A stretch of DNA of 24,616 bases from a virus. Below, piece after piece: positions 3,001 through 21,181 of the stretch. The position numbers were made by a program, and so were the translations under genes. A model generated the notes under the pieces. It had not been told where the DNA came from. It saw nothing but the letters and a program-made list of their open reading frames with translations, and searched no databases. The stretch covers positions 1-24,616 of IMG/VR virus record IMGVR_UViG_3300033571_005804; one strand, written 5' to 3'. Each line of letters begins with the position of its first letter. The first letter of the stretch is position 1.

Positions 3001-3355
3001 TGGTCAGGCTTCTGGTGGTTTAGTAATGAATAATGGAGCTATATCACGTTTCGCCGCAGGCGGCGGAGTAATGATGCGCGACCGTGTTCCTTCTCTATTA
3101 GAGCCTGGTGAATTCGTAATGAAGAAAACATCTGTTGATGCAATCGGAAAGGGTAACCTTGAGCGTATGAATGCTACTGGTAAGTCTTCTGGTGGTCCAA
3201 CTAACATTAAGGTACAGATCGAGAATAAAGGCTCTGAAAAAGAAGCACAGCAGGGTGAGACTCAAATGGATGGTGAAACAGCTATCGTAAAACTAATACT
3301 AAAAGACCTAAATTCAAATGGTCCAATAAGAAGATCAATTAGAGGGAATATGTAA
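2..3355 (+). CDS. Tail tape measure protein (5' end outside window)
   Basis: The reading frame is open from base 2 to the stop at 3353-3355, so about 1117 C-terminal residues are present and the true start lies upstream. The GTG at 611 is internal and not a credible start. The first half is Gln/Lys/Glu-rich helical coiled coil, as expected for the rod that sets tail length. Around 1480-1680 is a lambda-H-type segment of amphipathic and hydrophobic helices (motifs such as NFKQGFKQFI). The middle is Ala/Gly/Gln-rich with short repeats (QGGAG, QAGS) and a brief Gly-X-Y run near 2212-2252. The C-terminus has a six-glycine stretch, a hydrophobic FFSWIGSLFGFG segment and the common tape-measure ending VPSLLEPGEFVMKK, typical of many siphophage tape measures. 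The family is clear; how much of the N-terminus is missing cannot be judged. Its stop overlaps the next start (TAATG). Confidence 0.9.
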   Translation, partial: RDLQQSGVKFDDSRLLLLRQQLDLFKQQRTEFNKQAEVQESILRVQDSIRKTFSSQINALNNITGLVDASGKLATDDLEVKRNQLDILKETAAAGDQLRKSIPIPEGETLESTFNGVEQTILKASDSAKSALAGSILESIKKAAELTKEYEKQTIELQKQALTTRINIQKEDLQLQQQINEKQKELNTLIIQNQINAIARQQRVNELSAERIDILRKGREEEAKSITSGVLGPLFTDQQKRLIEIRFKEEELNDLKRALGAQVASAKQTLDAEVRLARENSTREDQRLTIQRSILELDATQKATDIGFRIEETKRQQEIFVKQSQAIQEQIKAFLDHPRELAKVLSQNVRDLIEVYKVNNPERAGALVGVEQNITQRENLINEQLKKQIEDINRSLTNGIESVTNATRNNLIALQEQEKALGRTVEGQRQQLSLEKQISDTRTNEAVTAAQARYNAVVLETGNRLLAAQQSLDILKREAERAGNSFIIVAVRFAESVSSNLEKGINSLVDAIANGTLTLNNFKQGFKQFIISILSDVTKAILNELITKPIKELVFGFTRDLISGLSGSTISETLAKNITPAISSSLTSSLGENITKSITGLKDIGITPVYVTNMAEFCACASGGAAAQGGAGAASTLAQGGAGRLMYDRPIGPMQPPTIAQRTAGTITQGGAGTVTQAGSSAIVQAGAQNVVSRGLGGRPADAPTGTPTDPTSVVIDNPEALTKSLSVPILSSAGNLGATGATGAAGAIGTEAANYGALNVTRSATQPLLSQPLAGAQLTSPAILGSTGINTNMGPAGFQSTFGVAGSYAGNGMITNKDFNTVTGTYGMSEVASPLSNINTGFQPPTRGVAFGDTSVAPGFDKGLTDTKVIEDFSSKLEEVNPKLGDFSGNFDNLNPSMIKWGENTSAATGNLDQLSNSANGLTNSTESMIPQLDMFGTATGMVTSAQTAGQAATVAQTTAIGTNTIATQQNTIAENANTGASGGGGGGFFSWIGSLFGFGQASGGLVMNNGAISRFAAGGGVMMRDRVPSLLEPGEFVMKKTSVDAIGKGNLERMNATGKSSGGPTNIKVQIENKGSEKEAQQGETQMDGETAIVKLILKDLNSNGPIRRSIRGNM

Positions 3356-4338
3356 TGGCTATATATCCAGATGACGCAGTAGTCTCTGCTACAGCGTTTG
3401 CAACAATAACTAGCGGAGAAGCTACTTTTACAAATACAGGGGCTGCAATAGATTTTAATCTACCTGTTAGTGTATCTTACCCAGCAGAAGTCTTTGTAAC
3501 TATAGGTGGTATAGTACAAGACGTTACGTCTTATTATTTATCAAACAATAATGCTACTCTATCTTTTTATAACCCTCCTGACGCAGATTCTATGGTAGTT
3601 AAATGCGTGGATCTTCCAGCTAGATATAGAAAGATTAGAAGCTCTCCTAATTTAGTTGTTAGCCATGTTAAATATTCAAACACAGCTTTTACTATAATTG
3701 ATAGTAATGCTTATATTTTAAATGGAGTACGAACATCTTTTTCTCTACCTACCGCAGCACTAGGAACTGGGCCTACCGCTAATTCAATATTTGTTATGTT
3801 ATCGGGTGTTGTGCAGAATAATGATGCTTATACCTATCCAAGCGCTACTTTAGGTATTAATGGAATTGATTTAGATACAGCTCCTGCAGCTTTTGGAGCT
3901 AGTGGTAACTTTGCTAATACTACTTTAGAAATTAGAACTTTTGTTACTGAGTCTAGTTATGTGAGTCGTTTTTCAGATATGAGAGATAGAAAACCTAATA
4001 ATGGTTACTCAATGCAAGACCAGTTTAATGTGTCTAAGTATCTTACTCAATCTGGTTATGAAAAAAGAAGATTATTATCTCGTAGACCTAAGCGCACCTT
4101 CTCTATAATATACTCAAACATTTCTGGAGTAGAAAAAGAAGCTATTGAAAACTTTTACTATGCACGTAGCGGAGAGTATGAAACTTTTACTTTTGACTTG
4201 ACTCATATTAATGATACTGGTACAGTAAGAACAAGATTTAATGGACCTTTAGAGATTCAACAAGTAATTTCAGCTGGATCTAAGTTAACTGAAAATTTCT
4301 ATAATATAAGACTAAATCTTCAGGAAGATTTTAATTAA
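3355..4338 (+). CDS. Lambda M-like minor tail protein with duplicated N-terminal beta module
   Basis: 327 residues, far longer than lambda gpM (about 110). The C-terminal part, about residues 235-327, has the gpM-like layout: GYEKRR, then a hydrophobic strand, an acidic helix, FYYARSGEYETFTFD, and a final NIRLNLQED strand. That domain helps join the tape-measure complex to the tail tip. The N-terminal two thirds hold two copies of a beta-rich module (about residues 46-85 and 143-196) with the pattern V-V-x-G-x-V-Q...Y, seen in appendage proteins and again in other genes here. The start overlaps the tape measure stop by one base (TAATG), and the stop overlaps the next gene in the same way, so translation is probably coupled. 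The M assignment rests on C-terminal motifs and gene order; a DUF2460-type tail protein is an alternative reading. Confidence 0.72.
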   Translation: MAIYPDDAVVSATAFATITSGEATFTNTGAAIDFNLPVSVSYPAEVFVTIGGIVQDVTSYYLSNNNATLSFYNPPDADSMVVKCVDLPARYRKIRSSPNLVVSHVKYSNTAFTIIDSNAYILNGVRTSFSLPTAALGTGPTANSIFVMLSGVVQNNDAYTYPSATLGINGIDLDTAPAAFGASGNFANTTLEIRTFVTESSYVSRFSDMRDRKPNNGYSMQDQFNVSKYLTQSGYEKRRLLSRRPKRTFSIIYSNISGVEKEAIENFYYARSGEYETFTFDLTHINDTGTVRTRFNGPLEIQQVISAGSKLTENFYNIRLNLQEDFN

Positions 4339-6071
4339 TGACAACTCGTTTATACGATTATATTATTACAGTATCAAATGCAGCTCCTTTTAAAAACGGT
4401 AATAATTTTATCGGTTTAAGCTCTAATACTTTTGGTTATGTTGCTAATGTAAATACCCTTACTAATAATATAAAAGTAAAAGTTAACAATGTATATCAAG
4501 AGTTTATAGTCGGAGAGTCTGTTGTAAGTACTCACTATAAAATATCTAACGTATCAACTTCTCAAAGTTTTACCCCTGCTAATGAAAATGTAGTACGCTT
4601 TACTCTTACTGGTAATACGGTTCCGGCTTCTGCTGGAGAACTAAGTGTTTATGTAGCTGGTCAATATCAGTCTAGAGCTAACTGGGAGTATGAAGAGTCT
4701 AACACTGCAATACACTTTTTTGAGTTTGCTAAGCCAGGATCTAATACAGTAATTGTCAGAAGAGATACTGGTAATACAGAAGCCCCTAGTTTTGCTGCTT
4801 CTAATTTGTCTCTTGGTAATGCTCAAAATTCTAGTTCTACTGTAATAACTGCTATAAACAATAGTCCTTTTATTAGAAGTAAGAATGCTTTTATACAGCC
4901 TCCTGTAGTAAGACTACTAACTTTTTATTACCCAGGAGAATGGTATCCTCCTAATGAAAAGGGAAATCCTAGCGGCTCCGGTGCCGGGCTATCTTGGCCT
5001 GCTGATATTCCATGGAGAATAGCAGAGGTAATAGGTGATATTCATTCGGATCTAAACTATAATGTTACCTTTGGAACTGAGTCTTATATGCCATATCCCA
5101 TGGAAACAGATGGTATAGGCACATCCTCAGATGGAACTATTGATAGAGTAACTGTTAGAGTATCAAACTATGATAATATAGTTACAAACTTTGTAGAAAA
5201 TCCATATTTAGTGGGTAATGTTGCTGCTCCTCATTCTGTATCAGGATATGTTAATGGAGAGCTAGTACAAGGATTAGACCCTAATACTGTTGTAGGAAGT
5301 TCTAGTTATGATCAATCTGTAGTAGATTCATATTACGGTGGTAAAACAAACGTCGCTTGGAGCTACGATAGAGCTATTGCACAAGGAAAAACTTGGAAAA
5401 ATTTAAAATATGATAGTAGAGATTTCTTAGGAGGCGTTGTAGAAATAAAATCTACTTTTGCTAGTCATTTACAGTATTGGCCAGAGTATTCTAAGATAAG
5501 AGATATAAATAGCAGTAATCTAGTTCAAGTTTACAATAGCGCTCCTTATAGAATAGGAGATAGTGTTACAACTCCTACATCTAACACTACAGTAAGAGTA
5601 GTTTCTATTCTTGACGAAGAGTTTTTGCTATTAGATAATCCTCTATCTAACGCTTCTGTAGATCAAAGTTTATTTGTTCTGAACCAAGAGCATGATCCAG
5701 AAGCTTATATTAAAGATGTTTTTAAAGTCACAGAGTTATCTGCTCTAAATGAAAACTTTGCTGAGTTCATTCTTACAAGCTGGTTACAGTATTTTAAGCT
5801 TCAACTTCCAAAGCGTAAATTCTATAAAAATACTTGTCAGTGGGAATATAGAGGTTCAGAGTGCCAATATCCTGGCCCCAATGGAGGCGCTATACCTGGA
5901 ACTTTTCCTGTATTGAATGCCAATACTAATCCTATAACCACTAGTAATGAGGTAGGTATATCAGCAGACGAAGATGAGTGTGCAAAATCTTATGAAGCCT
6001 GCAAAATCCGAAACAATACTATTCATTTCGGAGCTTTCCCAGGCACAGGAAGACAGGTTCCAAAACAATAA
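4338..6071 (+). CDS. Lambda L-like tail tip protein with C-terminal Fe-S cluster motif
   Basis: 577 residues. The C-terminus matches the lambda gpL signature: C500 and C509 flank a YRGSECQY-type segment, and C548 and C555 lie in DECAKSYEACK, followed by FGAFPG. In lambda these four cysteines hold a [4Fe-4S] cluster in the tail tip. Just before them is the LQYFKLQLPKRKFY strand region expected for L. The N-terminal part is expanded relative to lambda gpL (about 230 residues) and contains one copy of the beta module found in the preceding protein, about residues 101-141 (LSVYVAGQYQ...). About residues 195-215 are Pro/Gly-rich (YYPGEWYPPNEKGNPSGSG). One-base overlaps with both neighbours (TAATG) indicate coupled translation. 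The L assignment is confident from the cysteine pattern and its position directly after the M-like gene. Confidence 0.85.
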   Translation: MTTRLYDYIITVSNAAPFKNGNNFIGLSSNTFGYVANVNTLTNNIKVKVNNVYQEFIVGESVVSTHYKISNVSTSQSFTPANENVVRFTLTGNTVPASAGELSVYVAGQYQSRANWEYEESNTAIHFFEFAKPGSNTVIVRRDTGNTEAPSFAASNLSLGNAQNSSSTVITAINNSPFIRSKNAFIQPPVVRLLTFYYPGEWYPPNEKGNPSGSGAGLSWPADIPWRIAEVIGDIHSDLNYNVTFGTESYMPYPMETDGIGTSSDGTIDRVTVRVSNYDNIVTNFVENPYLVGNVAAPHSVSGYVNGELVQGLDPNTVVGSSSYDQSVVDSYYGGKTNVAWSYDRAIAQGKTWKNLKYDSRDFLGGVVEIKSTFASHLQYWPEYSKIRDINSSNLVQVYNSAPYRIGDSVTTPTSNTTVRVVSILDEEFLLLDNPLSNASVDQSLFVLNQEHDPEAYIKDVFKVTELSALNENFAEFILTSWLQYFKLQLPKRKFYKNTCQWEYRGSECQYPGPNGGAIPGTFPVLNANTNPITTSNEVGISADEDECAKSYEACKIRNNTIHFGAFPGTGRQVPKQ

Positions 6072-7255
6072 TGGCTATTAAAGGTTGCATTTTACCTTGG
6101 GTTCACATACACGGTGATTTAAAAGGTAGATATAGAGCTTGCTGTTTTTCTGATCAAGCTGATAAAGATCCTTATATTCTAGGCTCTAGTGTACAACCAT
6201 TACTAGAAGTTTGGAATGGTGATGCTTATATAAACCTAAGAAAACAATTTTTAGAAGATAAAATACCTGAACAATGTAAAAAAGCTTGTTATGATAAAGA
6301 AAGTTTAGGGGTTGAGCAAAACCCTAGACATAATGCTAATAATAAATGGGCTTCTTATTCCCATCTACAAAATTCTTTAACACCACCCCCACCAGTATTT
6401 ATAGATATAAGATTCGGTAATATTTGTAATTTTAGATGTAGAACTTGCGGACCTATGGCAAGCACATCTTGGATTAAAGAAAGTAAGAATCTATTTAAAA
6501 ACAAATATGCAAGATTATTAGATAACTGGACTAATAATGAAGAGTTATGGAAAGCTTTAGAAGAAATATATCCTACAATTGATACTATATATTTTGCAGG
6601 TGGTGAACCATTTGTATTAGATGGTCATTATAAGTTATTAGAGTTTTTAATATCTAAAAACAAAACAGATATAACTATCAATTACAACACTAATCTTTCT
6701 ATATTAAAATATAAAAACTATGATTTACCTTCTCTATGGGAGAAGTTTAAAATTGTAAATCTATGGGTAAGTTGTGATGGATATGGTCAGGTAGCTGAAT
6801 ATATAAGAAAAGAATTAGAATGGGAACAGTTTGAGACTAATGTTGATAAGGTTAGACCATACATTAGAACAATTAGTTCTGTGATATATACAATGAGTAT
6901 ATACTCTATGACAGATTTAATATTGTGGGCTAATTCTAGAAAAATTACTGTATTTGGTACAACATTAGTTAATCCTGACTATCTCTCTTGTCAAATTCTT
7001 CCAAAAGAAGAAAAGCATAAAATATTAATTCATTATAGAAATTTTTTAAATACATATAGAGAAGATCTATCTACTGATCAAATTAATAATATATTAGATT
7101 GGTTGAGATTTTTAAAAGGTGAAGTTAATAATAGAGAAGAGTTAGAAATTAAATTTAAAAAGGTTACGTCTACTTTAGATAGAAATAGGAACGAAAATTT
7201 TACCTATACAGTTCCTGAATTAGCAGATTGGTATGAATCAATCAAAATATCTTAA
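6071..7255 (+). CDS. Radical SAM enzyme with N-terminal twitch/SPASM-like cysteine domain
   Basis: 394 residues. The radical SAM core has the CxxxCxxC motif at C119, C123 and C126 (FGNICNFRCRTC) for the SAM-binding [4Fe-4S] cluster, followed by IYFAGGEPF (the GGEP motif) near residue 178. Unusually, the auxiliary-cluster cysteines precede the core: C6, C24-C25, then C69xxxC73, around PWVHIHGDLKGRYRACC. This corresponds to an N-terminal twitch architecture known to me from phage proteins annotated 'twitch domain-containing radical SAM protein'. The substrate is unknown. The gene sits between L-like and NlpC/P60 genes, where lambda has none, and starts on the L-like stop (TAATG). Its coding sequence is visibly richer in A/T and in Lys, Asn and Ile than the tail genes before it, suggesting later acquisition. 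Enzyme class is confident; a role in modifying tail proteins is inference from position. Confidence 0.85.
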   Translation: MAIKGCILPWVHIHGDLKGRYRACCFSDQADKDPYILGSSVQPLLEVWNGDAYINLRKQFLEDKIPEQCKKACYDKESLGVEQNPRHNANNKWASYSHLQNSLTPPPPVFIDIRFGNICNFRCRTCGPMASTSWIKESKNLFKNKYARLLDNWTNNEELWKALEEIYPTIDTIYFAGGEPFVLDGHYKLLEFLISKNKTDITINYNTNLSILKYKNYDLPSLWEKFKIVNLWVSCDGYGQVAEYIRKELEWEQFETNVDKVRPYIRTISSVIYTMSIYSMTDLILWANSRKITVFGTTLVNPDYLSCQILPKEEKHKILIHYRNFLNTYREDLSTDQINNILDWLRFLKGEVNNREELEIKFKKVTSTLDRNRNENFTYTVPELADWYESIKIS

Positions 7256-7646
7256 ATATCTAAATAAAAAACATGATTATTTAGAAAATAATTGTATTAC
7301 TTTAATAAATGAGATATATAAAAATGAACTTAACTCCAACGCTTTTGATAAGTTATGGGTATACTTAGACATGCCTGACGGTAAACCACAAGATGGGAAA
7401 GCTTGGATGAAGAGATTTTCTATACAAGATATAGAATATGGGGCTTCTTTAGTTGCTAAAAAAGTTGACTTGACAGATTTACAAGAATATGATGTAATAC
7501 TATTTAAGTCAAAAAGATTATTACCAATTCATTTCGGTATGTATGTAGGATATAACAAATTTATACATTTAGAAGAGGGGCGTTTTTCCAAAATTGATGT
7601 TTTAAACGACAATTGGAGAAACATGATAGCTAGTATATGGAGATAA
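7233..7646 (+). CDS. NlpC/P60-like tail cysteine peptidase, copy 1
   Basis: 137 residues. The NlpC/P60 pattern is present but diverged: candidate nucleophile C21 (ENNCITLINEIY), then IHFGMYVGYNKFIHLEEG with catalytic-position H100 and a second polar residue H112. The usual Asp before the Cys is Asn here. In lambda-type phages the NlpC/P60 domain is the C-terminal half of gpK, a tail-tip protein thought to cut peptidoglycan peptides. Here it is a separate small protein. The start overlaps the end of the radical SAM gene by 23 nt and the stop overlaps the next gene by 10 nt, so it belongs to the same translation-coupled series. A lineage partner, copy 2, follows directly. It could be an active enzyme or a structural remnant. 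Confidence 0.72.
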   Translation: MNQSKYLKYLNKKHDYLENNCITLINEIYKNELNSNAFDKLWVYLDMPDGKPQDGKAWMKRFSIQDIEYGASLVAKKVDLTDLQEYDVILFKSKRLLPIHFGMYVGYNKFIHLEEGRFSKIDVLNDNWRNMIASIWR

Positions 7647-8071
7647 ACTGGGAAAAATACGTAGGAATACCATATAAGCATTTAGGTCTTACACCTGAGA
7701 CTGGTATTGATTGTTTTAACCTTATAAAATATATTTATAAAAATGAATTAAATATAGACTTACCTTATACAACAAGAAATTTTTGTAATATTATTGATGA
7801 TAACTGGTACGGCAGAACTCATGAAAGATTAATTGATAATGTCAGTAATAATTCAGAATATGGTTGGGAAAAAATTTCTAATCCAGAGCTTTATAGTGTT
7901 ATAACTATGGTAATGGGTACGTCAAGCATAACTAATCACTGTGCTTTATATATAGGTAATAATAGAATAATTCATACAATACAGAACCACAAATCACATA
8001 TAGCCGTATACGGTTCATATTATAAACAATATACGATGGGGGTATATAAATGGGTAGGTATGAAGACTTAA
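7637..8071 (+). CDS. NlpC/P60 family tail cysteine peptidase, copy 2
   Basis: 144 residues with a clearer NlpC/P60 signature than its upstream neighbour: WEKYVGIPYKHLG, then TGIDC with nucleophile C26, a helix ending in a LPY segment, then NHCALYIGNNRIIHT with H101 and H113. The Cys-to-His distance (75) and His-to-His distance (12) are close to those of the preceding protein (79 and 12), which supports common ancestry. The expected role is local peptidoglycan hydrolysis or tip assembly, as for the NlpC/P60 half of lambda gpK. It overlaps the preceding gene by 10 nt and the following JAB gene by 22 nt. The start ATG at 7637 is chosen because the conserved WxxYVGxPY motif begins right after it. 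Confidence 0.85.
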   Translation: MEINWEKYVGIPYKHLGLTPETGIDCFNLIKYIYKNELNIDLPYTTRNFCNIIDDNWYGRTHERLIDNVSNNSEYGWEKISNPELYSVITMVMGTSSITNHCALYIGNNRIIHTIQNHKSHIAVYGSYYKQYTMGVYKWVGMKT

Positions 8072-8418
8072 TTAAGTCTTTTAAAACACATATGGAGGAG
8101 AATCCAGAATTTGAATGTTGTGGAATTATTACAAAAGATTTTAAATATATTCCTTGTAAAAATATAAGCCCTTCTCCAAAAGATACTTTTATATTAGACC
8201 CAGTAGCTCTTCTTAAACACGGAGAAGAATGCTGGGGTATTTTTCATAGTCATACTCCTTCCCATGAAGAACTACCTAGTGAAAAGGATAAAGATTCCGC
8301 TATATTTTCTCAATATAAATTTATAGTTGGTAATATGAATAATACTTTCTATCAATATTGGTTAGATGATTTAAACTATTTAAGATTCAAAGATTTTACA
8401 GAAGAGAGTTTAGTATAA
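8050..8418 (+). CDS. JAB/MPN (JAMM) domain tail protein
   Basis: 122 residues forming a stand-alone JAB/MPN domain. The zinc-site residues of the JAMM motif are visible: E22 in FECCGII, H66 and H68 in GIFHSHTP, then S77 and D80 in LPSEKD. The spacing between the second His and the Ser is eight residues, one more than the classical seven. In lambda gpK a JAB domain forms the N-terminal half of the protein, ahead of NlpC/P60; here it is a separate gene and lies after the NlpC/P60 genes. It is probably a tail-tip metallopeptidase or assembly factor. The start lies inside the preceding gene (22-nt overlap) with a G-rich stretch just upstream as a possible ribosome site; the stop at 8416-8418 abuts the next start. 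Confidence 0.82.
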   Translation: MGRYEDLIKSFKTHMEENPEFECCGIITKDFKYIPCKNISPSPKDTFILDPVALLKHGEECWGIFHSHTPSHEELPSEKDKDSAIFSQYKFIVGNMNNTFYQYWLDDLNYLRFKDFTEESLV

Positions 8419-9147
8419 ATGTTACTTACTTTACATTTTCATCCGGTCCTTCAACCTATGACAGGAGTAAAATCTCATACTTTTGATGTAGCAAAGCTAT
8501 CAGACATTAAAGATGCTCTAAGTGTTTTATTTCCTAAAATTAGAAAGTATATTAGACAAATCGCAGCTGGTACTCTTAGAGAGAATCTATCTTTAGTTAC
8601 AACAGATGGAAAGATTTTAACAAGAGAAGACTATTTTATTAATAGAGTAACACATAGAGAACTTACTATTGTTCCTATAATAGCAGGATCTGGAAGAGGT
8701 CTAGGCATAATTCTAGGTATACTTTTAATAGGAGCTGCCTTATTCTTAGGTGGTGCTCCTCTAGCTTTAGGCGGTACTGGCGCTGGTTTCGTAGGTTCCA
8801 CTACTGCTCTTGGTGGTTTATTTAGTGCGGGTGGGTTGCTTAAAATGGGTCTAGGACTTGTTTTATCTGGATTGATGCAAATGCTAATGAAACCTCCTGA
8901 TATGAAGGGTCCATCAGATTCTGCGCAACGTAGAAATAATGATATGTTTGATGCTTTAGAAAATAGCACAGATCCTAGTACTCCTGTACCTCTTATATAT
9001 GGTATGCCTAGATGTGCGGGTCAAATGTTAAGTGGCCATGTTGAAACTATAACACATGGAGAGTCTGAAACTATATACGTAGTAGATTTATTATATAAAA
9101 ACAGATCAGAGATTGAGAAAATTGAAGGCGGTAATTCTTCAACTTAA
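8419..9147 (+). CDS. Lambda I-like tail assembly protein
   Basis: 242 residues. The N-terminal 85 or so residues form a ubiquitin-like beta-grasp region (LTLHFHPVLQ..., DIKDALSVLFP), followed by a long hydrophobic Gly/Ala/Leu-rich segment (about residues 92-160) and then the conserved stretch SAQRRNNDMFDALENS...PVPLIYGMPRCAGQML. Lambda gpI homologues end with a similar N-x-x-x-Q-G-x-x-V-P-L-x-Y-G block. The protein is needed to build the tail tip with gpJ. It starts directly after the JAB stop (no spacer) and precedes the J-like gene by 18 nt. The assignment is strong from both motif order and gene order (JAB, I, J). Confidence 0.85.
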   Translation: MLLTLHFHPVLQPMTGVKSHTFDVAKLSDIKDALSVLFPKIRKYIRQIAAGTLRENLSLVTTDGKILTREDYFINRVTHRELTIVPIIAGSGRGLGIILGILLIGAALFLGGAPLALGGTGAGFVGSTTALGGLFSAGGLLKMGLGLVLSGLMQMLMKPPDMKGPSDSAQRRNNDMFDALENSTDPSTPVPLIYGMPRCAGQMLSGHVETITHGESETIYVVDLLYKNRSEIEKIEGGNSST

Positions 9148-9165: not shown

Positions 9166-12100
9166 ATGACAGTTATTTACATAGATGATGCTGCAGTCCC
9201 TCTTATAGAAGGTGGTGGCGGCGGTTGTTTCTCTAGTGATACACAGATATTAACTGAGTCAGGAACTATTTCAATATCAGATATTGAAGTAGGTGATAGA
9301 GTATGGGCTTTTAATGAGATTGGTCAATTAATTATCTCTGAAGTAACTGAGACTTTTTACCATACAAACGACTTAATTTATAGAGTAACTCATGAAGAAG
9401 GTTATTTAGATATTACACCTAATCATTGGGTTTTAAAAGATGATGGAACTTATCAAGAATTAAGAGATTTTAAAATTGGTGATAAGCTTATTACTGAAAA
9501 TAATTCTTTTTCGAGAATTATTTCAATAGACTTTCTAAAAGAAGATGAAGTTTATAACTTCAAAGTCTCACATTTACACTCTTATATTGCTAATGGTATT
9601 AAAGTCCATAATGGAGGCGGAGGAGGTAAAGGAGGAGGAGGAGGGAAAGAAGATCCTAATTCTTTATTCTCTACTGATGTCTTATTTATAACTTTAGGGT
9701 TAGGAGAAGGTCCTGTATATAGAATTAACCCTAACGGCCCTCAAGATATTGAGTTTAATGAAGGAAACATAGATGACCTATTAACTGATGGATCAGTGAA
9801 TAGTGAAAAGTTTTTTACTATAAATAACACAGGAACTATCTCTCAACAAAGACTACCTCTTTTTGGAGATTATACTTTTGTACCTCAAAGATTACAAGGA
9901 TCTGTAGATCTTAAAAAAGGCAATCTTGATAGTGTTCCTAGAGCCGCTGTTGATAAGCAGAGTACTTCTCCTACAGCTCTAAGTGCTATTAAGCTTTATT
10001 TTATTCTACAAGGGTTACAGAAACAGACAGATAAAGGTGATATTGTTGGAGACTCGTTATCTGTTAAAGCTACGTTATACGATAGATCTGGGGTTAATAT
10101 AATTACAACCCAAGAAAGAGTGATAAAAGGAAAAACAAATACAGCTTACTCTTTTGATTTATTTATGTCTATACCGCCCGATAAACAATCAGACGATGGA
10201 TATAAGTTTACTGTTGAAAAAACTAGCGATGATGCCGACACCGCTAAAAGACAAAACAGTGTAACTTTTCAAGGATGGACTGAAATAATAGAGGAGCCTA
10301 TTGCTTATACTAGAACAGCTACTATAGGATACGCCCTAAAAGCTTTTGCTGAGCACAAAGGCGGTTTACCTGCTATGACCAATATGGTCAAAGGATTGAT
10401 AGTAAAAGTACCTTCAAACTATAATCAGCCTATATTAGAAAACGGTGATATTGATTGGAGACAAATTGAAGTATCAGAATCTGATAGAACTACATACGGT
10501 TATCGCCAACAAAGAACTGGTAGCACTATATTATACAATGCAAACCCTGTAATTTATCAAGGATTATGGGATGGTCAATTTGTATATTCTTGGACACAGA
10601 ACCCAGCATGGATTATCTATGATATGTTAACTAATAAAACATATGGTTTAGGTATACCCGAAGATAATATTGACAAATACTCTTTTTATGATGTAGCTAT
10701 ATATAATGATGCTTGTGATGTTACAAATGGTAGATTTTACGGAGTTGACGCTCAAGCTGATGGAACTTATAGATATAAGCCTAGAACCACTAAAACATCG
10801 GTTGCAGACGTGTTAGTAGGTCTAGACCCAGATGTAGATATTAAAGAGCGTAGATTTATTTTAGATACTGTAGTATCTGATCAAAAACAGGTTATGGATA
10901 TTATTCATATTATGACCTTAACTTTCAGGGGAATGTTGTTTTATACAGGAGGCAAAATAAGCTTATACCAAGATAAGCCTGACAATATGCCTGTTGCTTT
11001 ATTTAATGAGACTAATATACTTGCTGGTACATTTAATATATCCGGCATAGGAGAGGAAGCTTTATTAACTGGAGTAGATGTAACATATAATGATATGACT
11101 AATCATTATAGAAGAGAAGTTTTACGTGTAGATGATCAAAAAGCCTTAACTGAAAGAAATTATATAGAAAATGTAGCAAAGATAGACTTAGTAGGCGTGT
11201 CAAGGAAAAGTCAGGCTCTACGTTTAGCTCAATATATGATCGCGGATACAAAGTATTCTAGAAGAAAAGTTGGATTTAAAACGGGTATTGAAGCCTCTGA
11301 AATATCTCCAGGCTCTGTTATATCTATATCTCAAAGAGCCACTTCTGTAGCTTGGGGCTATGGAGGAATTGTATCTAATACTTCAGCAGCTTCTGGGGCC
11401 ATGATTTACCTAGAGCATATTGGTAATCCTCCTATTATTGCTTCAGTTTTCACTGCTAATACAAAGCCTCTTGCTTTAAGAATAGCAAGTGGAAAGTCAG
11501 GTTTAATAGACACCTATATAATTAGTAATACTACATATTCTTTAAGTAATACTTCTAATGTGAATAGTGGTGCTGAAGTAATCGGTGTTCAAGCTATTAA
11601 AAAATATGATCATCCAACTAAATCATTTCAATCGTTTACTGGTACTTGGGGAGATAATCATGTTCCCAGTAGACAAGATGTTTGGAGTTTAGGAGAAATT
11701 CTAGATCCAACAAATATCTATTCCTCTCTAACTGATAAACTATTTAGAGTTATTAATATAAAAAGAGATAGAGACGAGACTGTATTTATAGAAGCTAAAG
11801 AGTATGTAAATAATGTATATATTGATTCTGATACCATCATTAATTATAACCCTTTAAAGTTTGCTGACTTTTTCAGCCCTCTTAGAGCTCCTCCAGCTCC
11901 TGATTTTACTTTAAGTCCAATTGCCAAAAGAGATTTTGATGGTTCACTTTATACAGATATAGTAATCAGTGCATATACTGATTTAACTGGTTATTCTAAT
12001 GAGATTAAAACTGAGTTTTATCATGCTAAACCCTTATCATCTTATCTCTTGTTATCTAACACCAATCACTCTGCAAGTAGAGATATTCTCTTATGTAAGG

Positions 12101-15100
12101 TAGACGATATTTCTTCTATATCTAACGGAGTTTCTGCAATTATTCAAGGTAAGAATGGTTTTACAACAGAGTTAGGCGTATCAAGACTATTAGTTACAGG
12201 ATTCTCTATAACTGACGTTGATCCTGTGTATAAACCAAACGGAAACATAACTTTTACGGTTCAAGGTTTAAAAGGTCTTATTGATCAGAATTTTGAAAAT
12301 AATACTCACGTTTTAGACGTACTTAATACTTATAACTTTAATGAATTAAAGGGTGTGAATAAACTTACCCTTCCTATAAATCAAAAGACTCTCTCTGGAA
12401 CAGGAGATGCTTTAGGTTATTTAGGATTTGTTGGATCTGATACTACACTAACTAACTATAGCGCTAATGTTGTAGGTTTTAATGCTAATACAGCTACAAT
12501 TAAAATTGATAATGATACCTCTGGCGCTTTTTCTTTGGAAGGTATAATCCCAGATCCTCCTTTCTATATATCTATCCCACAAGTACTAGATCATAGATAT
12601 TTCTCTAATAATACTCTATATATTACTGGAAACTATGTTGAAGTTACTAGAACTAATGTTGCTACTACGAGCAACATTCAAGGAAATAGATTTAAACAGC
12701 CTTTAAGCATGTCAATAAGACATTCTGATTTTGTTAGTGTTTATATTAATGGGGTTGACGATACTAACTATGTATTAGAAAGAGGGTTAGATGGCTTAGC
12801 TAATTCTCAAGTATCTATTACTTTAACAACCTTACCTACTAGTACTTCTAATTTAGATATTAGAGTTACCGCTAATACATATACTGTTCCTTTAATAGAA
12901 GCAGGAGATAATATTAGTTGGAATTCTGGTAATACTTATGGAATTACAGCTACAACTTATGATATCGCATCTCCAACTTATAATGCTTATATGACAGCCA
13001 ATAATATTTATAGAGTAACTCTGTCTGAGCCTATAAGATCAAATATAGCTGTTTCATATGCTACTAATATTACACCTAATCCAATAGGAGTTATAGGAAA
13101 CGTAAACTCTACTAATAAAACATTTACTTTTAATTATCCATCAGATGTATACCCAGGTTTATTAAATATAGGTAATAATGCTGTATATTTAATTAATGCG
13201 CCGGCTTCTGTATATGAGCCAATGAGTTTCGGTGACTCAACTTCTAGAATTATAAGAAGAGCGGAGGTAGGAGTACATTCAGTAAAAGCTAGAACCGTTA
13301 ATAAATATGGAAGAAGAAGCGCTTTCGTAACAAAAAACACAACTGTTTATAATATACCAATTAGAGCTGTTAATAATTTAAACGTAGAAGAAGAGTTATA
13401 TAAAGATTCTACTCTTGGTATTGCTGTGAGAGTGATTATAGTTTTTGATCATATAACAGGTCAAGATGTCACTGATTATGAAATATCTTATAAGATAACA
13501 TCTCTAAATACTTCTTTAAATAGTTCATTTATTACTGTAAAAGCTTCTGCTAATGGTGTAGATTCAGACGGTAAAATAAGATTTAGAATAGATAATATAG
13601 AAAAAGGCATAAATGGTACTAAAAACTCTATCACAGTTAGAGTAACTCCTTTAAATAGGTCTATTAGGGGATCAACTACTACAAAAACTATTGATTTAAT
13701 AGGTAAGTCAGCTAAGCCTAATAATGTAGTTAATTTTGCAGCAGGACAAACAGGAGATAGCTTAGTATTTATTTGGCAGTACATAATCAATCCAGCAACA
13801 GGTGATAATATAGATATTGACTTGCTAGAAGTTAATATTAGAAGACTTGAAGGAGTTCTTTCCGATATTTCTGACTCAAACTTATTAGATTTATGGCCTA
13901 GATCTGATGAAGTAGCCAGAGTAGACGCTAGAACTAACAGAGTAGTTATTGATATTGATCAGTACGGTACCTATACTTATTTAGTAAGAACTAAAGATAC
14001 TTCTGGTAATTTTAGTGAAACTATTGTGGTCTCTGAGTTTACTTCGGCACCTCAAAGCTTTACTAATGTGTTCAAAGCATGGTCAGAAGACGATCCTAGT
14101 GGAGCATATGTACCAGGAGTCATTAATGAGAACTATGGTTCTAATGCTTACCTATCTTACTATAATTCTAATAACTATGGGTTTCCAAGTAATTCTTTTA
14201 ATGCAAGTAGAACAGATAATGCTAATGGAACTTCAGTAGGCTGGAGTGTAATCGGGAGTTCTCCTTCTGATCTAAGAGCTTTGGCAAACGCTATTTATCA
14301 AACAGAGATAAGAGATATAGGTAACGTAATATCAGCATCTTTATCTGTAGATATTGTAGGAGATCAAGCTCTAAAATCTACTTGGTTAGATTATAGCGAC
14401 CAGATAGGAGGAAATCAAGTAACTGAGTCAGCCCCTTCTGGAAGCTTAAGAGATGTTGACTTTTCTGGGTCGTTAGGTATCGGTAATATTTTAGGTTTTG
14501 CTAATGCTTCAGCAGCTACTGTTACTTATGACTCAGAGAATAAAACACTAACTAGCGGAATTCAAGCAACTCACCCTGCAAACGTATATGCTATTATAGC
14601 TAGAGGAAACTTTAATGGAGATGTTGCTAACGCAAATGTTATGAGTTTAATAGCAGGTGTAAGTAACGCAAACACTTTAGTTTTAGGAGAGTCTTGGTAT
14701 GCTAATGGAAAATCTATAGGAAGTAATGGATTTTCTAATTTAACAGTTGCAGGCACCTCCTATAAACTGGTAAACTTAAGGCAGTGGTTAGATTTAAGTG
14801 GTAGTTCTACTTTCTACGGAACTACAGGACTAGTTACTACTAATACTGAATTTAGATTTACAGATTCTAATCCTTATTATGCTAATGGTAGAGTAAACAA
14901 CTCAGTGTTTACTTCTATATCTAATTCTGACGGGTTTACTAACTTCGTTAGTGGAGCAAGAACTTTTAGATATTTTCAGTTTAGATATATAGTTAATAAT
15001 TATGACCCACAACAAGCTGAATTTATACTAGATAAGTTCAGATATAAAGTAAGCTTAAATGAAAAAACATTTACGTCAATAGTAACTATGAATACTGCAT

Positions 15101-15327
15101 CCGTTACTACTTATGTAGATTATGCTAGAATGGCCTTTGTACAGACACCAAAAATAACTGGAGCTTTAGTGTCTTCGAGTTCAAATCAATTAGCAAGGCC
15201 GCAAGTTGTGATTGTAGATAGAGGATTATCAGGAGCAAACATTTCTGTATATTTTTCTAACGGAGTCTCATCTCATAATGTTGGTTCTAGTGTTACAACA
15301 GTAGACTTTTCAGTAACAGGAGTTTAA
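9166..15327 (+). CDS. Lambda J-like central tail tip/host specificity protein with embedded Hint domain
   Basis: 2053 residues, much longer than lambda gpJ (1132). Residues 1-20 end in five glycines; residues 21-149 are a Hint (intein-like) domain, described separately; residues 150-161 are a second Gly/Lys-rich run. The gpJ body then begins (STDVLFITLGLGEGPVYRI). About residues 540-720 are the conserved J core (ERRFILDTVVSD, RGMLFYTGGKISLYQDKP). About 1190-1240 is a beta module shared with the M-like and L-like proteins. Two fibronectin-III-like segments lie at about 1396-1510 and 1512-1625. The last 400 residues are Ser/Asn/Thr-rich and are the likely receptor-contact region. In lambda, gpJ forms the trimeric tip and binds the receptor. 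The start ATG has only a weak GGGG ribosome site 11 nt upstream. The J identity is strong; the order of C-terminal domains is approximate. Confidence 0.9.
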   Translation: MTVIYIDDAAVPLIEGGGGGCFSSDTQILTESGTISISDIEVGDRVWAFNEIGQLIISEVTETFYHTNDLIYRVTHEEGYLDITPNHWVLKDDGTYQELRDFKIGDKLITENNSFSRIISIDFLKEDEVYNFKVSHLHSYIANGIKVHNGGGGGKGGGGGKEDPNSLFSTDVLFITLGLGEGPVYRINPNGPQDIEFNEGNIDDLLTDGSVNSEKFFTINNTGTISQQRLPLFGDYTFVPQRLQGSVDLKKGNLDSVPRAAVDKQSTSPTALSAIKLYFILQGLQKQTDKGDIVGDSLSVKATLYDRSGVNIITTQERVIKGKTNTAYSFDLFMSIPPDKQSDDGYKFTVEKTSDDADTAKRQNSVTFQGWTEIIEEPIAYTRTATIGYALKAFAEHKGGLPAMTNMVKGLIVKVPSNYNQPILENGDIDWRQIEVSESDRTTYGYRQQRTGSTILYNANPVIYQGLWDGQFVYSWTQNPAWIIYDMLTNKTYGLGIPEDNIDKYSFYDVAIYNDACDVTNGRFYGVDAQADGTYRYKPRTTKTSVADVLVGLDPDVDIKERRFILDTVVSDQKQVMDIIHIMTLTFRGMLFYTGGKISLYQDKPDNMPVALFNETNILAGTFNISGIGEEALLTGVDVTYNDMTNHYRREVLRVDDQKALTERNYIENVAKIDLVGVSRKSQALRLAQYMIADTKYSRRKVGFKTGIEASEISPGSVISISQRATSVAWGYGGIVSNTSAASGAMIYLEHIGNPPIIASVFTANTKPLALRIASGKSGLIDTYIISNTTYSLSNTSNVNSGAEVIGVQAIKKYDHPTKSFQSFTGTWGDNHVPSRQDVWSLGEILDPTNIYSSLTDKLFRVINIKRDRDETVFIEAKEYVNNVYIDSDTIINYNPLKFADFFSPLRAPPAPDFTLSPIAKRDFDGSLYTDIVISAYTDLTGYSNEIKTEFYHAKPLSSYLLLSNTNHSASRDILLCKVDDISSISNGVSAIIQGKNGFTTELGVSRLLVTGFSITDVDPVYKPNGNITFTVQGLKGLIDQNFENNTHVLDVLNTYNFNELKGVNKLTLPINQKTLSGTGDALGYLGFVGSDTTLTNYSANVVGFNANTATIKIDNDTSGAFSLEGIIPDPPFYISIPQVLDHRYFSNNTLYITGNYVEVTRTNVATTSNIQGNRFKQPLSMSIRHSDFVSVYINGVDDTNYVLERGLDGLANSQVSITLTTLPTSTSNLDIRVTANTYTVPLIEAGDNISWNSGNTYGITATTYDIASPTYNAYMTANNIYRVTLSEPIRSNIAVSYATNITPNPIGVIGNVNSTNKTFTFNYPSDVYPGLLNIGNNAVYLINAPASVYEPMSFGDSTSRIIRRAEVGVHSVKARTVNKYGRRSAFVTKNTTVYNIPIRAVNNLNVEEELYKDSTLGIAVRVIIVFDHITGQDVTDYEISYKITSLNTSLNSSFITVKASANGVDSDGKIRFRIDNIEKGINGTKNSITVRVTPLNRSIRGSTTTKTIDLIGKSAKPNNVVNFAAGQTGDSLVFIWQYIINPATGDNIDIDLLEVNIRRLEGVLSDISDSNLLDLWPRSDEVARVDARTNRVVIDIDQYGTYTYLVRTKDTSGNFSETIVVSEFTSAPQSFTNVFKAWSEDDPSGAYVPGVINENYGSNAYLSYYNSNNYGFPSNSFNASRTDNANGTSVGWSVIGSSPSDLRALANAIYQTEIRDIGNVISASLSVDIVGDQALKSTWLDYSDQIGGNQVTESAPSGSLRDVDFSGSLGIGNILGFANASAATVTYDSENKTLTSGIQATHPANVYAIIARGNFNGDVANANVMSLIAGVSNANTLVLGESWYANGKSIGSNGFSNLTVAGTSYKLVNLRQWLDLSGSSTFYGTTGLVTTNTEFRFTDSNPYYANGRVNNSVFTSISNSDGFTNFVSGARTFRYFQFRYIVNNYDPQQAEFILDKFRYKVSLNEKTFTSIVTMNTASVTTYVDYARMAFVQTPKITGALVSSSSNQLARPQVVIVDRGLSGANISVYFSNGVSSHNVGSSVTTVDFSVTGV
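9226..9612 (+). other. Hint (bacterial intein-like) domain inside the J-like protein, no endonuclease
   Basis: About 129 residues, C21 to N149 of the J-like protein. It begins with a splice-type Cys (CFSSDTQILTESG), has the block B TxxH (T84-P-N-H87), and ends with the block F/G pattern SYIANGIKVHN (H148, N149). There is no homing endonuclease. The residue after N149 is Gly rather than Cys, Ser or Thr, so classical splicing by transesterification is not supported. That fits intein-like domains that cleave at one or both ends, or that process by another route. Both flanks are polyglycine, so cleavage after N149 would leave a J protein starting with Gly. Domain identity is confident; activity is not shown by sequence. 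Confidence 0.88.
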
Positions 15328-19520: not shown

Positions 19521-20507
19521 ATGAAAAAATACAAACAAATAACAACTGAATTAACATTTAGATGTAATGCTAAATGTCCTGCTTGTCACAGACAAAAGCC
19601 TTTAAGAATAGATTTAAATGATGCTAAATATACTTTTACACTTGAGTCTTTTCAAAAAGTATTTTATCCTGAGTTTTTAAGTAATCTAGAGTGGTTAGTC
19701 TTTAACGGAAACTTTGGTGATTCCATAATGAATAAGCAATTTAGAGAGATAATAGCTTATGTAAAACAACACAATGTAAGATTAAATATTCATACAAATG
19801 GCGGAATTCATAATAAAGATTATTGGAATGATGTAGGCAATATTCTTGATTCTAAAGATATTATAAATTTTGCTCTAGATGGTTTATCAGATACTCATTC
19901 TACTTATAGAATAAATACTACTTTTGAAAAAGTTTTTGAAAATGCTAAATCTGTTATAGAGACTAAGAGATCCCAAGTTCATTGGAAGTTTATTGTTTTT
20001 GATTATAATCAGCATCAAATAGCAGAGGCTAAAGAGCTTGCAATAAAAGAAGGTTTTACTTCTTTTAATCTAATTAAGACTGGCAGATTCTTTGCTGCTC
20101 CTACTACTGGTGATTATGTTCATACCAAAAAAACAGCAGACTTAACAAAACTACCCAAGAAAATACATTGTAGTTGGGATGATTGGGAAAAATGGTATGT
20201 ATCTCCTGATGGATTAGTTTTTAGATGTTGTTGGACAGGTGCTCACTACTACGATAAGGAAGTGACTAGATTTTATTATCCTACTAACTTTGAGAACATA
20301 TTTAATGCTAATAGTATTCCTATAGAAGAAATAATATCTTCTCAATATTGGGAAAAATTAAGAAGCTATCTTCAAGGTTATGATAGAAGTTTTCCTATTT
20401 GCAAAAGTCAATGTGGAAAAGTAATCAGTAGCAGAGAAAAAATAGAGGAAAACCTATTTACAGGTGAAAAAACTATATTTGAAGCTGGGCAAGGAAGATA
20501 TACTTAA
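19521..20507 (+). CDS. Radical SAM/SPASM domain enzyme adjoining the tail fibre gene
   Basis: 328 residues. The N-terminal radical SAM motif is C15xxxC19xxC22 (TFRCNAKCPACH). The C-terminal SPASM-like auxiliary cysteines are C217, C236-C237, C294 and C298 (CSWDDWEKWYVSPDGLVFRCC, then CKSQC). SPASM proteins commonly modify peptides or proteins using extra Fe-S clusters, but the substrate here is unknown. The ATG at 19521 directly follows the fibre stop and no good ribosome site is visible, so translation probably depends on ribosomes finishing the fibre. An AT-only inverted repeat and a promoter for the next gene follow. The gene is rich in A/T and Lys/Asn codons. Enzyme class is confident. 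A role in modifying the fibre is a positional inference only. Confidence 0.87.
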   Translation: MKKYKQITTELTFRCNAKCPACHRQKPLRIDLNDAKYTFTLESFQKVFYPEFLSNLEWLVFNGNFGDSIMNKQFREIIAYVKQHNVRLNIHTNGGIHNKDYWNDVGNILDSKDIINFALDGLSDTHSTYRINTTFEKVFENAKSVIETKRSQVHWKFIVFDYNQHQIAEAKELAIKEGFTSFNLIKTGRFFAAPTTGDYVHTKKTADLTKLPKKIHCSWDDWEKWYVSPDGLVFRCCWTGAHYYDKEVTRFYYPTNFENIFNANSIPIEEIISSQYWEKLRSYLQGYDRSFPICKSQCGKVISSREKIEENLFTGEKTIFEAGQGRYT

Positions 20508-20569: not shown

Positions 20570-21181
20570 ATGATCACAAAAACTCTTAAAAATATAAAAA
20601 AGCAAGTTATGGAAGATGATTCTGTAGAAGATATTATGGAAGAAATAACAGGTTCTGAACAAGAAATGGAAGAGCCTGAAGAAAATGATGACGACGAAGA
20701 AGAGCAAATGTCTTCTATGTCTCAAGAAGATCCTTCTGTAGATACTCTAATAGCATCTTTAAAAACATATTTAGCAGATTCTTTTTCTGTATATGTAAAA
20801 GCCTCATATTTCCATTGGAATATAGAAGGACCGGACTTTTTTCAGTATCACGAGTTACTAGGAAAAATATACGACGATATACAAGGAACTATAGATCCTA
20901 TTGCCGAAAATATTCGTAAGTTAGGGGGTTATGCTCCTGGATCATTTGGAAGATTCCAAGAACTAACTGCTATTACAGAAGCTTCAAAAATTATACCACC
21001 AGCGATGGTTATGTTTAAAGAGTTACACGACGATCTAGAGAAGTTAATAGCTTCTAATGAGAGATCTTATGAATTAGCAGAGATTAATCATGAGCACGGT
21101 ATTTCTGATTTCCTTGCAGGAAGAGATGGTATGCTTAAGAAGTGGCGTTGGTTTTTACGTTCTACACTAGCTAATAGATAA
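20570..21181 (+). CDS. Dps-like ferritin with acidic N-terminal extension
   Basis: 203 residues. Residues 1-55 are strongly acidic (runs of Glu/Asp, 30-46) and are not part of the fold. Residues 57-203 follow the Dps four-helix pattern: SYFHWNIEGPDF, YHELLGKIYDDI, IDPIAENIRKLGG. Compared with E. coli Dps, the ferroxidase ligands H51, H63, D78 and E82 correspond to H82, H94, D109 and E113 with the same spacing, while the D67 position is Gly98. Dps proteins oxidise and store iron and protect DNA; phage versions are known. With one ligand changed, iron chemistry may be altered, although D102 and D103 are nearby. It has its own promoter and a strong ribosome site, and leads a small late-gene group. 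The role in this phage (protection, packaging aid or virion component) is not clear from sequence. Confidence 0.85.
   Translation: MITKTLKNIKKQVMEDDSVEDIMEEITGSEQEMEEPEENDDDEEEQMSSMSQEDPSVDTLIASLKTYLADSFSVYVKASYFHWNIEGPDFFQYHELLGKIYDDIQGTIDPIAENIRKLGGYAPGSFGRFQELTAITEASKIIPPAMVMFKELHDDLEKLIASNERSYELAEINHEHGISDFLAGRDGMLKKWRWFLRSTLANR

Follow-up and report, generated by a model that had tools for sequence, protein, structure and literature searches.

A 24,616-nucleotide stretch of viral DNA (IMG/VR record IMGVR_UViG_3300033571_005804; hereafter, the window) encodes a lambda J-like tail-tip protein that contains an intein-like Hint domain between two runs of glycine. This locus raises the question of what such a domain does to the J protein when the residue after its terminal Asn is not a nucleophile. 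The J gene and its parts were located as follows.

9166..15327 (+): lambda J-like tail-tip/host-specificity protein bearing the Hint domain, 2053 aa (phrog_31, 1.5e-94; lambda_TipJ, 1.5e-34; FNIII-A_GpJ, 5.4e-13)
9166..9225 (+): N-extein, aa 1-20, MTVIYIDDAAVPLIEGGGGG, the final five residues being Gly (G16-G20), with the VPxI.G motif common to Hint-less J N-termini
9226..9612 (+): Hint (BIL-like) domain, aa 21-149, 129 aa, without an endonuclease domain, identified by profile and structure matches
9226..9228 (+): Cys1 (C21), predicted nucleophile of the N-S acyl shift (59/59 in the alignment, 34/34 in the J-anchored sample)
9361..9363 (+): H66, invariant (59/59), counterpart of the zinc-binding H48 in the alignment with BUBL BIL2
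9415..9426 (+): block B TPNH, T84-H87 (H87 59/59, T84 58/59; TxNH 34/34 in the J-anchored sample)
9607..9612 (+): terminal His148-Asn149, following V147, predicted residues of C-terminal cleavage (J-anchored sample: Asn 34/34; His 26/34, Ser 8/34)
9613..9645 (+): start of the C-extein, GGGGGKGGGGG (G150-G154, K155, G156-G160), with the non-nucleophile Gly150 at +1
9652..10200 (+): conserved start of canonical J, DPNSLFSTD...GEGPVYRINPNGP, common to Hint+ and Hint-less relatives in the alignment

The homology to J (phrog_31, lambda_TipJ and FNIII-A_GpJ) begins downstream of the Hint domain, and in most of the matches listed the homology to J of cultured phages begins at about residue 162, directly after it.

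Residues 21-149 of J constitute a complete HINT superfamily domain, with the HINT fold and blocks A, B, F and G. Both Pfam Hint (6e-8) and PT-HINT (2e-7) matched this segment above their cut-offs, and among the NCBIfam models intein_Cterm reached 20.0 bits on J against a cut-off of 15.6, with intein_Nterm below its cut-off. When the single Hint sequence was searched against the PDB, it matched 2lwy, a bacterial intein-like domain (BIL), at 1.7e-8. With a profile of 59 sequences, 2lwy was the best match (5.5e-21) and Tetrahymena BUBL BIL2 the second (2.8e-17), the gp41-1 intein being matched at 3.7e-15; the two BILs obtained 78 and 66 bits compared with 59 for the gp41-1 intein, values that are search scores and not a tree. 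The AlphaFold2 model of J residues 1-167 had pLDDT values mostly above 90 across the Hint domain, and the TM scores by target obtained from Foldseek with the Hint model were 0.88 for 2lwy, 0.89 for the gp41-1 intein and 0.85 for NpuDnaB. The preliminary description of this locus had placed a Hint domain with C21, TPNH, VHN and five-glycine flanks in the tail-tip J protein, and the sequence, the profiles and the AlphaFold2/Foldseek comparison bear this out.

We compared the domain with the known classes of HINT domains. As in class 1 inteins, position 1 is Cys or Ser and the terminal residue Asn or Gln (C21 and N149 here, and 34/34 in the J-anchored sample); however, the Cys, Ser or Thr that class 1 inteins carry at +1 is replaced by Gly here and was found in neither the 71 relatives (0/71) nor the J-anchored sample (0/34), and the missing +1 nucleophile noted in the preliminary description extends to all of these relatives. 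The class 1 mini-inteins gp41-1 and NpuDnaB accordingly share the fold and the motif blocks with the J Hint but not the +1 residue. Class 3 inteins, which have a WCT motif and no Cys or Ser at position 1, differ in that Cys1 is invariant here. The C-terminal His-Asn without a +1 nucleophile that characterizes A-type BILs is present (HN followed by G), whereas A-type BILs are described in hypervariable, non-conserved bacterial proteins (PMC7765530) and the J Hint is fixed at one position of a conserved hub protein of the virion. The A-type BIL 2lwy, from Clostridium thermocellum, resembles the J Hint in its fold, Cys1, block B T..H and terminal Asn, and likewise lacks a +1 nucleophile and an endonuclease; the J Hint differs from it in having Gly on both sides and a short N-extein (9-28 aa among Hint+ relatives).

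We examined the conservation of these features in 71 distinct Hint domains obtained from IMG/VR and a few MAGs. The +1 residue was Gly in 36, Lys in 27, Ala in 7 and Phe in 1 (L044, outside J), and Gly occupied –1 in 69/71 domains and +2 in 71/71. The domain is 129-132 aa long in the relatives and 135 aa in a divergent subclade. In the 59-sequence alignment, 9 of the 129 Hint positions are invariant, including C21, H66, H87, H148 and N149. With TPNHWVL and H[ST][YF]I[AS]NG among the search patterns and HN required by the filter, this procedure favored motif-bearing sequences; conservation was therefore counted again in loci that had been retrieved through the J region alone. In this J-anchored sample of 34 distinct Hint+ proteins, Cys1, TxNH, the terminal Asn and the –1 Gly were each present in 34/34, and +1 was Lys (22) or Gly (12). 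The recount also revealed an SN-ending subclade that the HN filter had passed over, comprising eight related J proteins (L143, L144, L147, L151, L170, L188, L190 and L192) with Ser in place of the penultimate His and Lys at +1. Conservation of the Cys and of the terminal His-Asn had been singled out in advance as a check on the proposal of autoprocessing: Cys1 and Asn hold throughout, whereas the His has become Ser in one subclade, a substitution that does not refute the proposal. Both half reactions retain their full set of residues, namely Cys1 and TxxH for the N-S acyl shift and those required by Asn cyclization; the nucleophile for transesterification alone is missing. Since these features are conserved in relatives, the occurrence of the domain in J is not due to chance, and the conserved catalytic residues of a Hint without a +1 nucleophile make autoprocessing of J, as previously suggested, likely.

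A HINT fold can outlast the activity of its domain, and the absence of both the homing endonuclease and the +1 nucleophile would suit a former intein that remains folded in J, as a relic or structural domain, after processing was lost. However, the catalytic positions are among the most conserved, no degenerate Hint copy was found in the J-anchored sample (n=34), and the dN/dS of the Hint domain is 0.06-0.25; we thus regard an inert domain as quite improbable.

The first Hint scan of IMG/VR yielded 36 loci, 31 of which encode J with the Hint in the same position. A scan with the Hint profile found relatives encoded at 512 loci, a number that may include ordinary inteins, and the best 80 of the 512 were kept. 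Among the 71 distinct domains, 70 lie at the same place in J. The exception, in L044 (~4935-5447), is a member of the same Hint subfamily (6e-47) in a different, seemingly tail-related Gly/Lys-rich protein, with the flanks GAK|C...HN|FGGGKAGGG. In bacterial and archaeal genomes, six Hint matches were found, and four of these, in records labelled Betaproteobacteria, Oxalobacter, Chloroflexi and Cyanobacteria, are of the J type. We also queried 50,697 annotated phage records, more than 1,500 of which had a J match, with the Hint; among the matches listed, none was annotated or recognized as J, and the matches inspected there were one ordinary helicase intein (HN followed by C) and otherwise Hint domains in non-J proteins. 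No earlier report of a Hint domain in J was found in the literature searched, which covered few subscription journals. In the J tree (62 rows), the presence or absence of the Hint is explained by one change, with weak support (68/78), and the domain thus appears to be stably inherited without any endonuclease. A mobile parasitic intein was rejected in view of the absence of an endonuclease, the fixed site and this single change. On the basis of these sequence comparisons, the Hint in J is real, widespread and conserved, is nucleophile-free, resides in a virion hub protein and is probably active.

We further analyzed the sequence preceding the domain. The J-anchored scan detected nine distinct Hint-less J N-termini in the same clade; homologous J proteins with and without the domain, which the preliminary description had proposed to seek, are thus both available. 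For example, the Hint-less N-terminus MGKNYSKHHNALVPIISGAKGGKGGGGGGASEDPNSLFSTD equals a Hint+ sequence minus the Hint, its Hint+ counterpart being LLSRQYINQNGKKVPLIYGAKGGG-Hint-KGGGKGGGGTAASGTESPNSLFSTD. Among the Hint+ N-exteins, 35/36 carry the motif [VIALMT]P.[IV].G, as do 9/9 of the Hint-less N-termini, compared with 0.04 of 9 expected from shuffles; this contrast is descriptive because the motif was written after these sequences had been viewed. The Hint-less lambda J family (e.g. gene 21 of phage N15) shares the downstream J domains and the L-K-I-J gene order with the locus studied here; its Gly-rich leader is continuous, however, whereas here the leader is interrupted by the Hint. We computed pairwise dN/dS values using Nei-Gojobori counts with the Jukes-Cantor correction, and in three subclades they were 0.10-0.23 for the N-extein, 0.06-0.25 for the Hint and 0.05-0.23 for J, the N-extein value being 0.10 in the YIDD clade. 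The 20-residue N-extein is therefore under purifying selection. Its conservation and the motif common to Hint-less N-termini point to an N-extein that is retained in mature J; neither would be expected if the N-extein were cut away and discarded. The loss of the first 149 residues of J, as originally proposed, accordingly appears less likely. The constraint could also stem in part from Hint catalysis or the needs of translation start. How the N-terminal hairpin packs could not be read from an AlphaFold2 model of a Hint-less J (pLDDT ~55).

We propose, with a confidence that is evenly balanced, that an active BIL-type Hint removes itself from the glycine-rich leader of J, probably by a ligation that uses no side-chain nucleophile. 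In this scheme, Cys21 would attack the Gly20-Cys21 bond to form a Gly thioester, and cyclization of Asn149 would free the amine of Gly150. The unhindered Gly150 amine would then attack the thioester, whereby MTVIYIDDAAVPLIEGGGGG would become joined to GGGGGKGGGGGKEDPN and the Hint would be released; the ligated product would have the same form as the N-terminus of the Hint-less sister J. A Gly amine beside a Gly thioester would be a sterically favorable pair, and processing would presumably occur before or during tip assembly; a timed cut or an ejection switch, as raised in the preliminary description, would be hypothetical. In Dassa's study, too, the freed amine is said to attack the thioester. 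For the 2lwy domain, ligation that needs no nucleophilic side chain was reported (Aranko 2013, as cited in PMC7664689), and both protein splicing and auto-cleavage were reported for BILs that lack a flanking nucleophile (Dassa 2004, as cited in PMC7765530).

If the freed amine did not attack, cleavage alone would result, with cuts at Asn149-Gly150 and Gly20-Cys21, a mature J starting at Gly150, and an N-peptide that is lost or separately used. The outcome suggested in the preliminary description corresponds to the C-terminal cut. The absence of the +1 nucleophile in all 71 Hints agrees with this outcome, as does the start of recognized J homology after the Hint. Moreover, BIL domains are described as yielding mostly cleaved products (PMC7664689), and a review describes A-type BILs as unable to ligate (PMC7765530), both of which count against ligation. 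An I.G.GGG motif flanks the domain on both sides in the two subclades where the Hint is followed by GG[HYF]xRxxP or AGLG; with a complete J-like leader behind the Hint, these would obtain a J-like N-terminus from C-terminal cleavage alone as well, and the processing outcome may thus differ between subclades. However, Cys1 and TxNH are invariant although C-terminal cleavage alone does not need them, and the constrained N-extein matches Hint-less J N-termini. Cleavage alone is the main rival, of substantial but lesser probability: the kept residues, the reported ligation by BILs and the favorable Gly pair lead us to rank ligation that restores the Hint-less form of J first and cleavage without ligation second.

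BIL-type domains, for which no role has been settled, have been described mainly in variable bacterial proteins. The J Hint lies at one site in a conserved hub protein across diverse uncultured phages and keeps the residues that bear the chemistry. Given this fixed site, the kept chemistry and the Hint-less sister alleles, a biological use of nucleophile-free HINT chemistry becomes directly testable, and natural Gly-flanked Hint domains could be useful for protein ligation.

The following tail genes were identified upstream of J.

4338..6071 (+): minor tail protein L homologue (Phage_tail_L, 7.9e-26)
7233..8071 (+): two adjacent NlpC/P60 ORFs, 7233..7646 and 7637..8071, the first matching the C-terminal part of NlpC/P60 only
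8050..8418 (+): JAB-type peptidase, part of the lambda K homologue, as a separate ORF (Prok-JAB, 9e-10)
8419..9147 (+): tail assembly protein I homologue adjoining J (phrog_32, 1.5e-27), syntenic in Hint+ loci

Hint+ loci of this clade show synteny of L, NlpC, JAB, I and J; in more distant Hint+ clades, L and I were found, and NlpC or JAB in many. The phage I family contains a ubiquitin-like domain, and processing by JAB has been proposed for it (PMC1779556). With JAB and NlpC genes just upstream of J, and JAB/NlpC processing after Gly proposed for the I protein (PMC1779556), these peptidases might process the Gly-rich flanks, the Hint merely regulating access. However, Gly-rich J leaders without a Hint occur beside the same kind of tail genes, and several Hint+ loci have no match to the JAB or NlpC of the window, which makes such a role extremely improbable.

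The lambda tip is made of I, J and L, and its lumen is plugged by I (PMC10721106, PMC11101478). Taken together with the ubiquitin-like domain of the I family and its proposed JAB processing, this tip role of I makes a role in conjugation conceivable by analogy. The N-peptide thioester (...GG~Cys21) might be transferred to a Lys or N-terminal amine of J or of its neighbor in the trimer, forming an isopeptide bond. BUBL1 BIL2 (6y75, 6tmm), the second-best PDB profile match, resembles the J Hint in its HINT fold, the GG before position 1 and a His at the position of H66. It ligates by a non-standard route and forms isopeptide bonds (PMC8616854), whereas ligation by the J Hint is a proposal; it joins ubiquitin-like proteins through Lys, whereas the flanks of the J Hint are not ubiquitin-like. 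Lys155 lies nearby, +1 is Lys in 27/71 Hints, and the adjoining I protein, whose family has a ubiquitin-like domain, lies beside a JAB peptidase. However, Hint-less J carries the K-GGG motif equally, which indicates that the Lys is not there for the Hint, and the paired zinc site of BIL2 is not conserved; we consider this transfer very improbable. Zinc regulation as in BIL2 was rejected: H66 matches H48, but the second ligand, H125, aligns with N131, and the zinc site is thus not conserved as a pair. More broadly, the Hint and its glycine-rich flanks might act as a built-in, ATP-free tail-tip ligase that joins the Gly thioester to the N-terminus of Gly150 or to a Lys, which might lie on a second J of the trimer. 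We regard this as unlikely; if true, a covalent joint or cross-link would form as part of tip assembly.

Several further genes of the window were noted. Upstream of L, an ORF (3355..4338, +) has a weak DUF2460 match (1.4e-5, below the cut-off). A Twitch-domain radical SAM protein (6071..7255, +; NCBIfam NF033640, 1.5e-100) is encoded between L and the NlpC/JAB/I/J genes. This gene is found in the tail module of only a subset of Hint+ relatives, and it was rejected as a requirement of the Hint on account of its absence from Hint+ loci with enough upstream sequence (L004, L026 and L056). Downstream of the tail fibre genes, the window encodes a second radical SAM/SPASM-like protein (19521..20507, +) and a ferritin-like protein (20570..21181, +).
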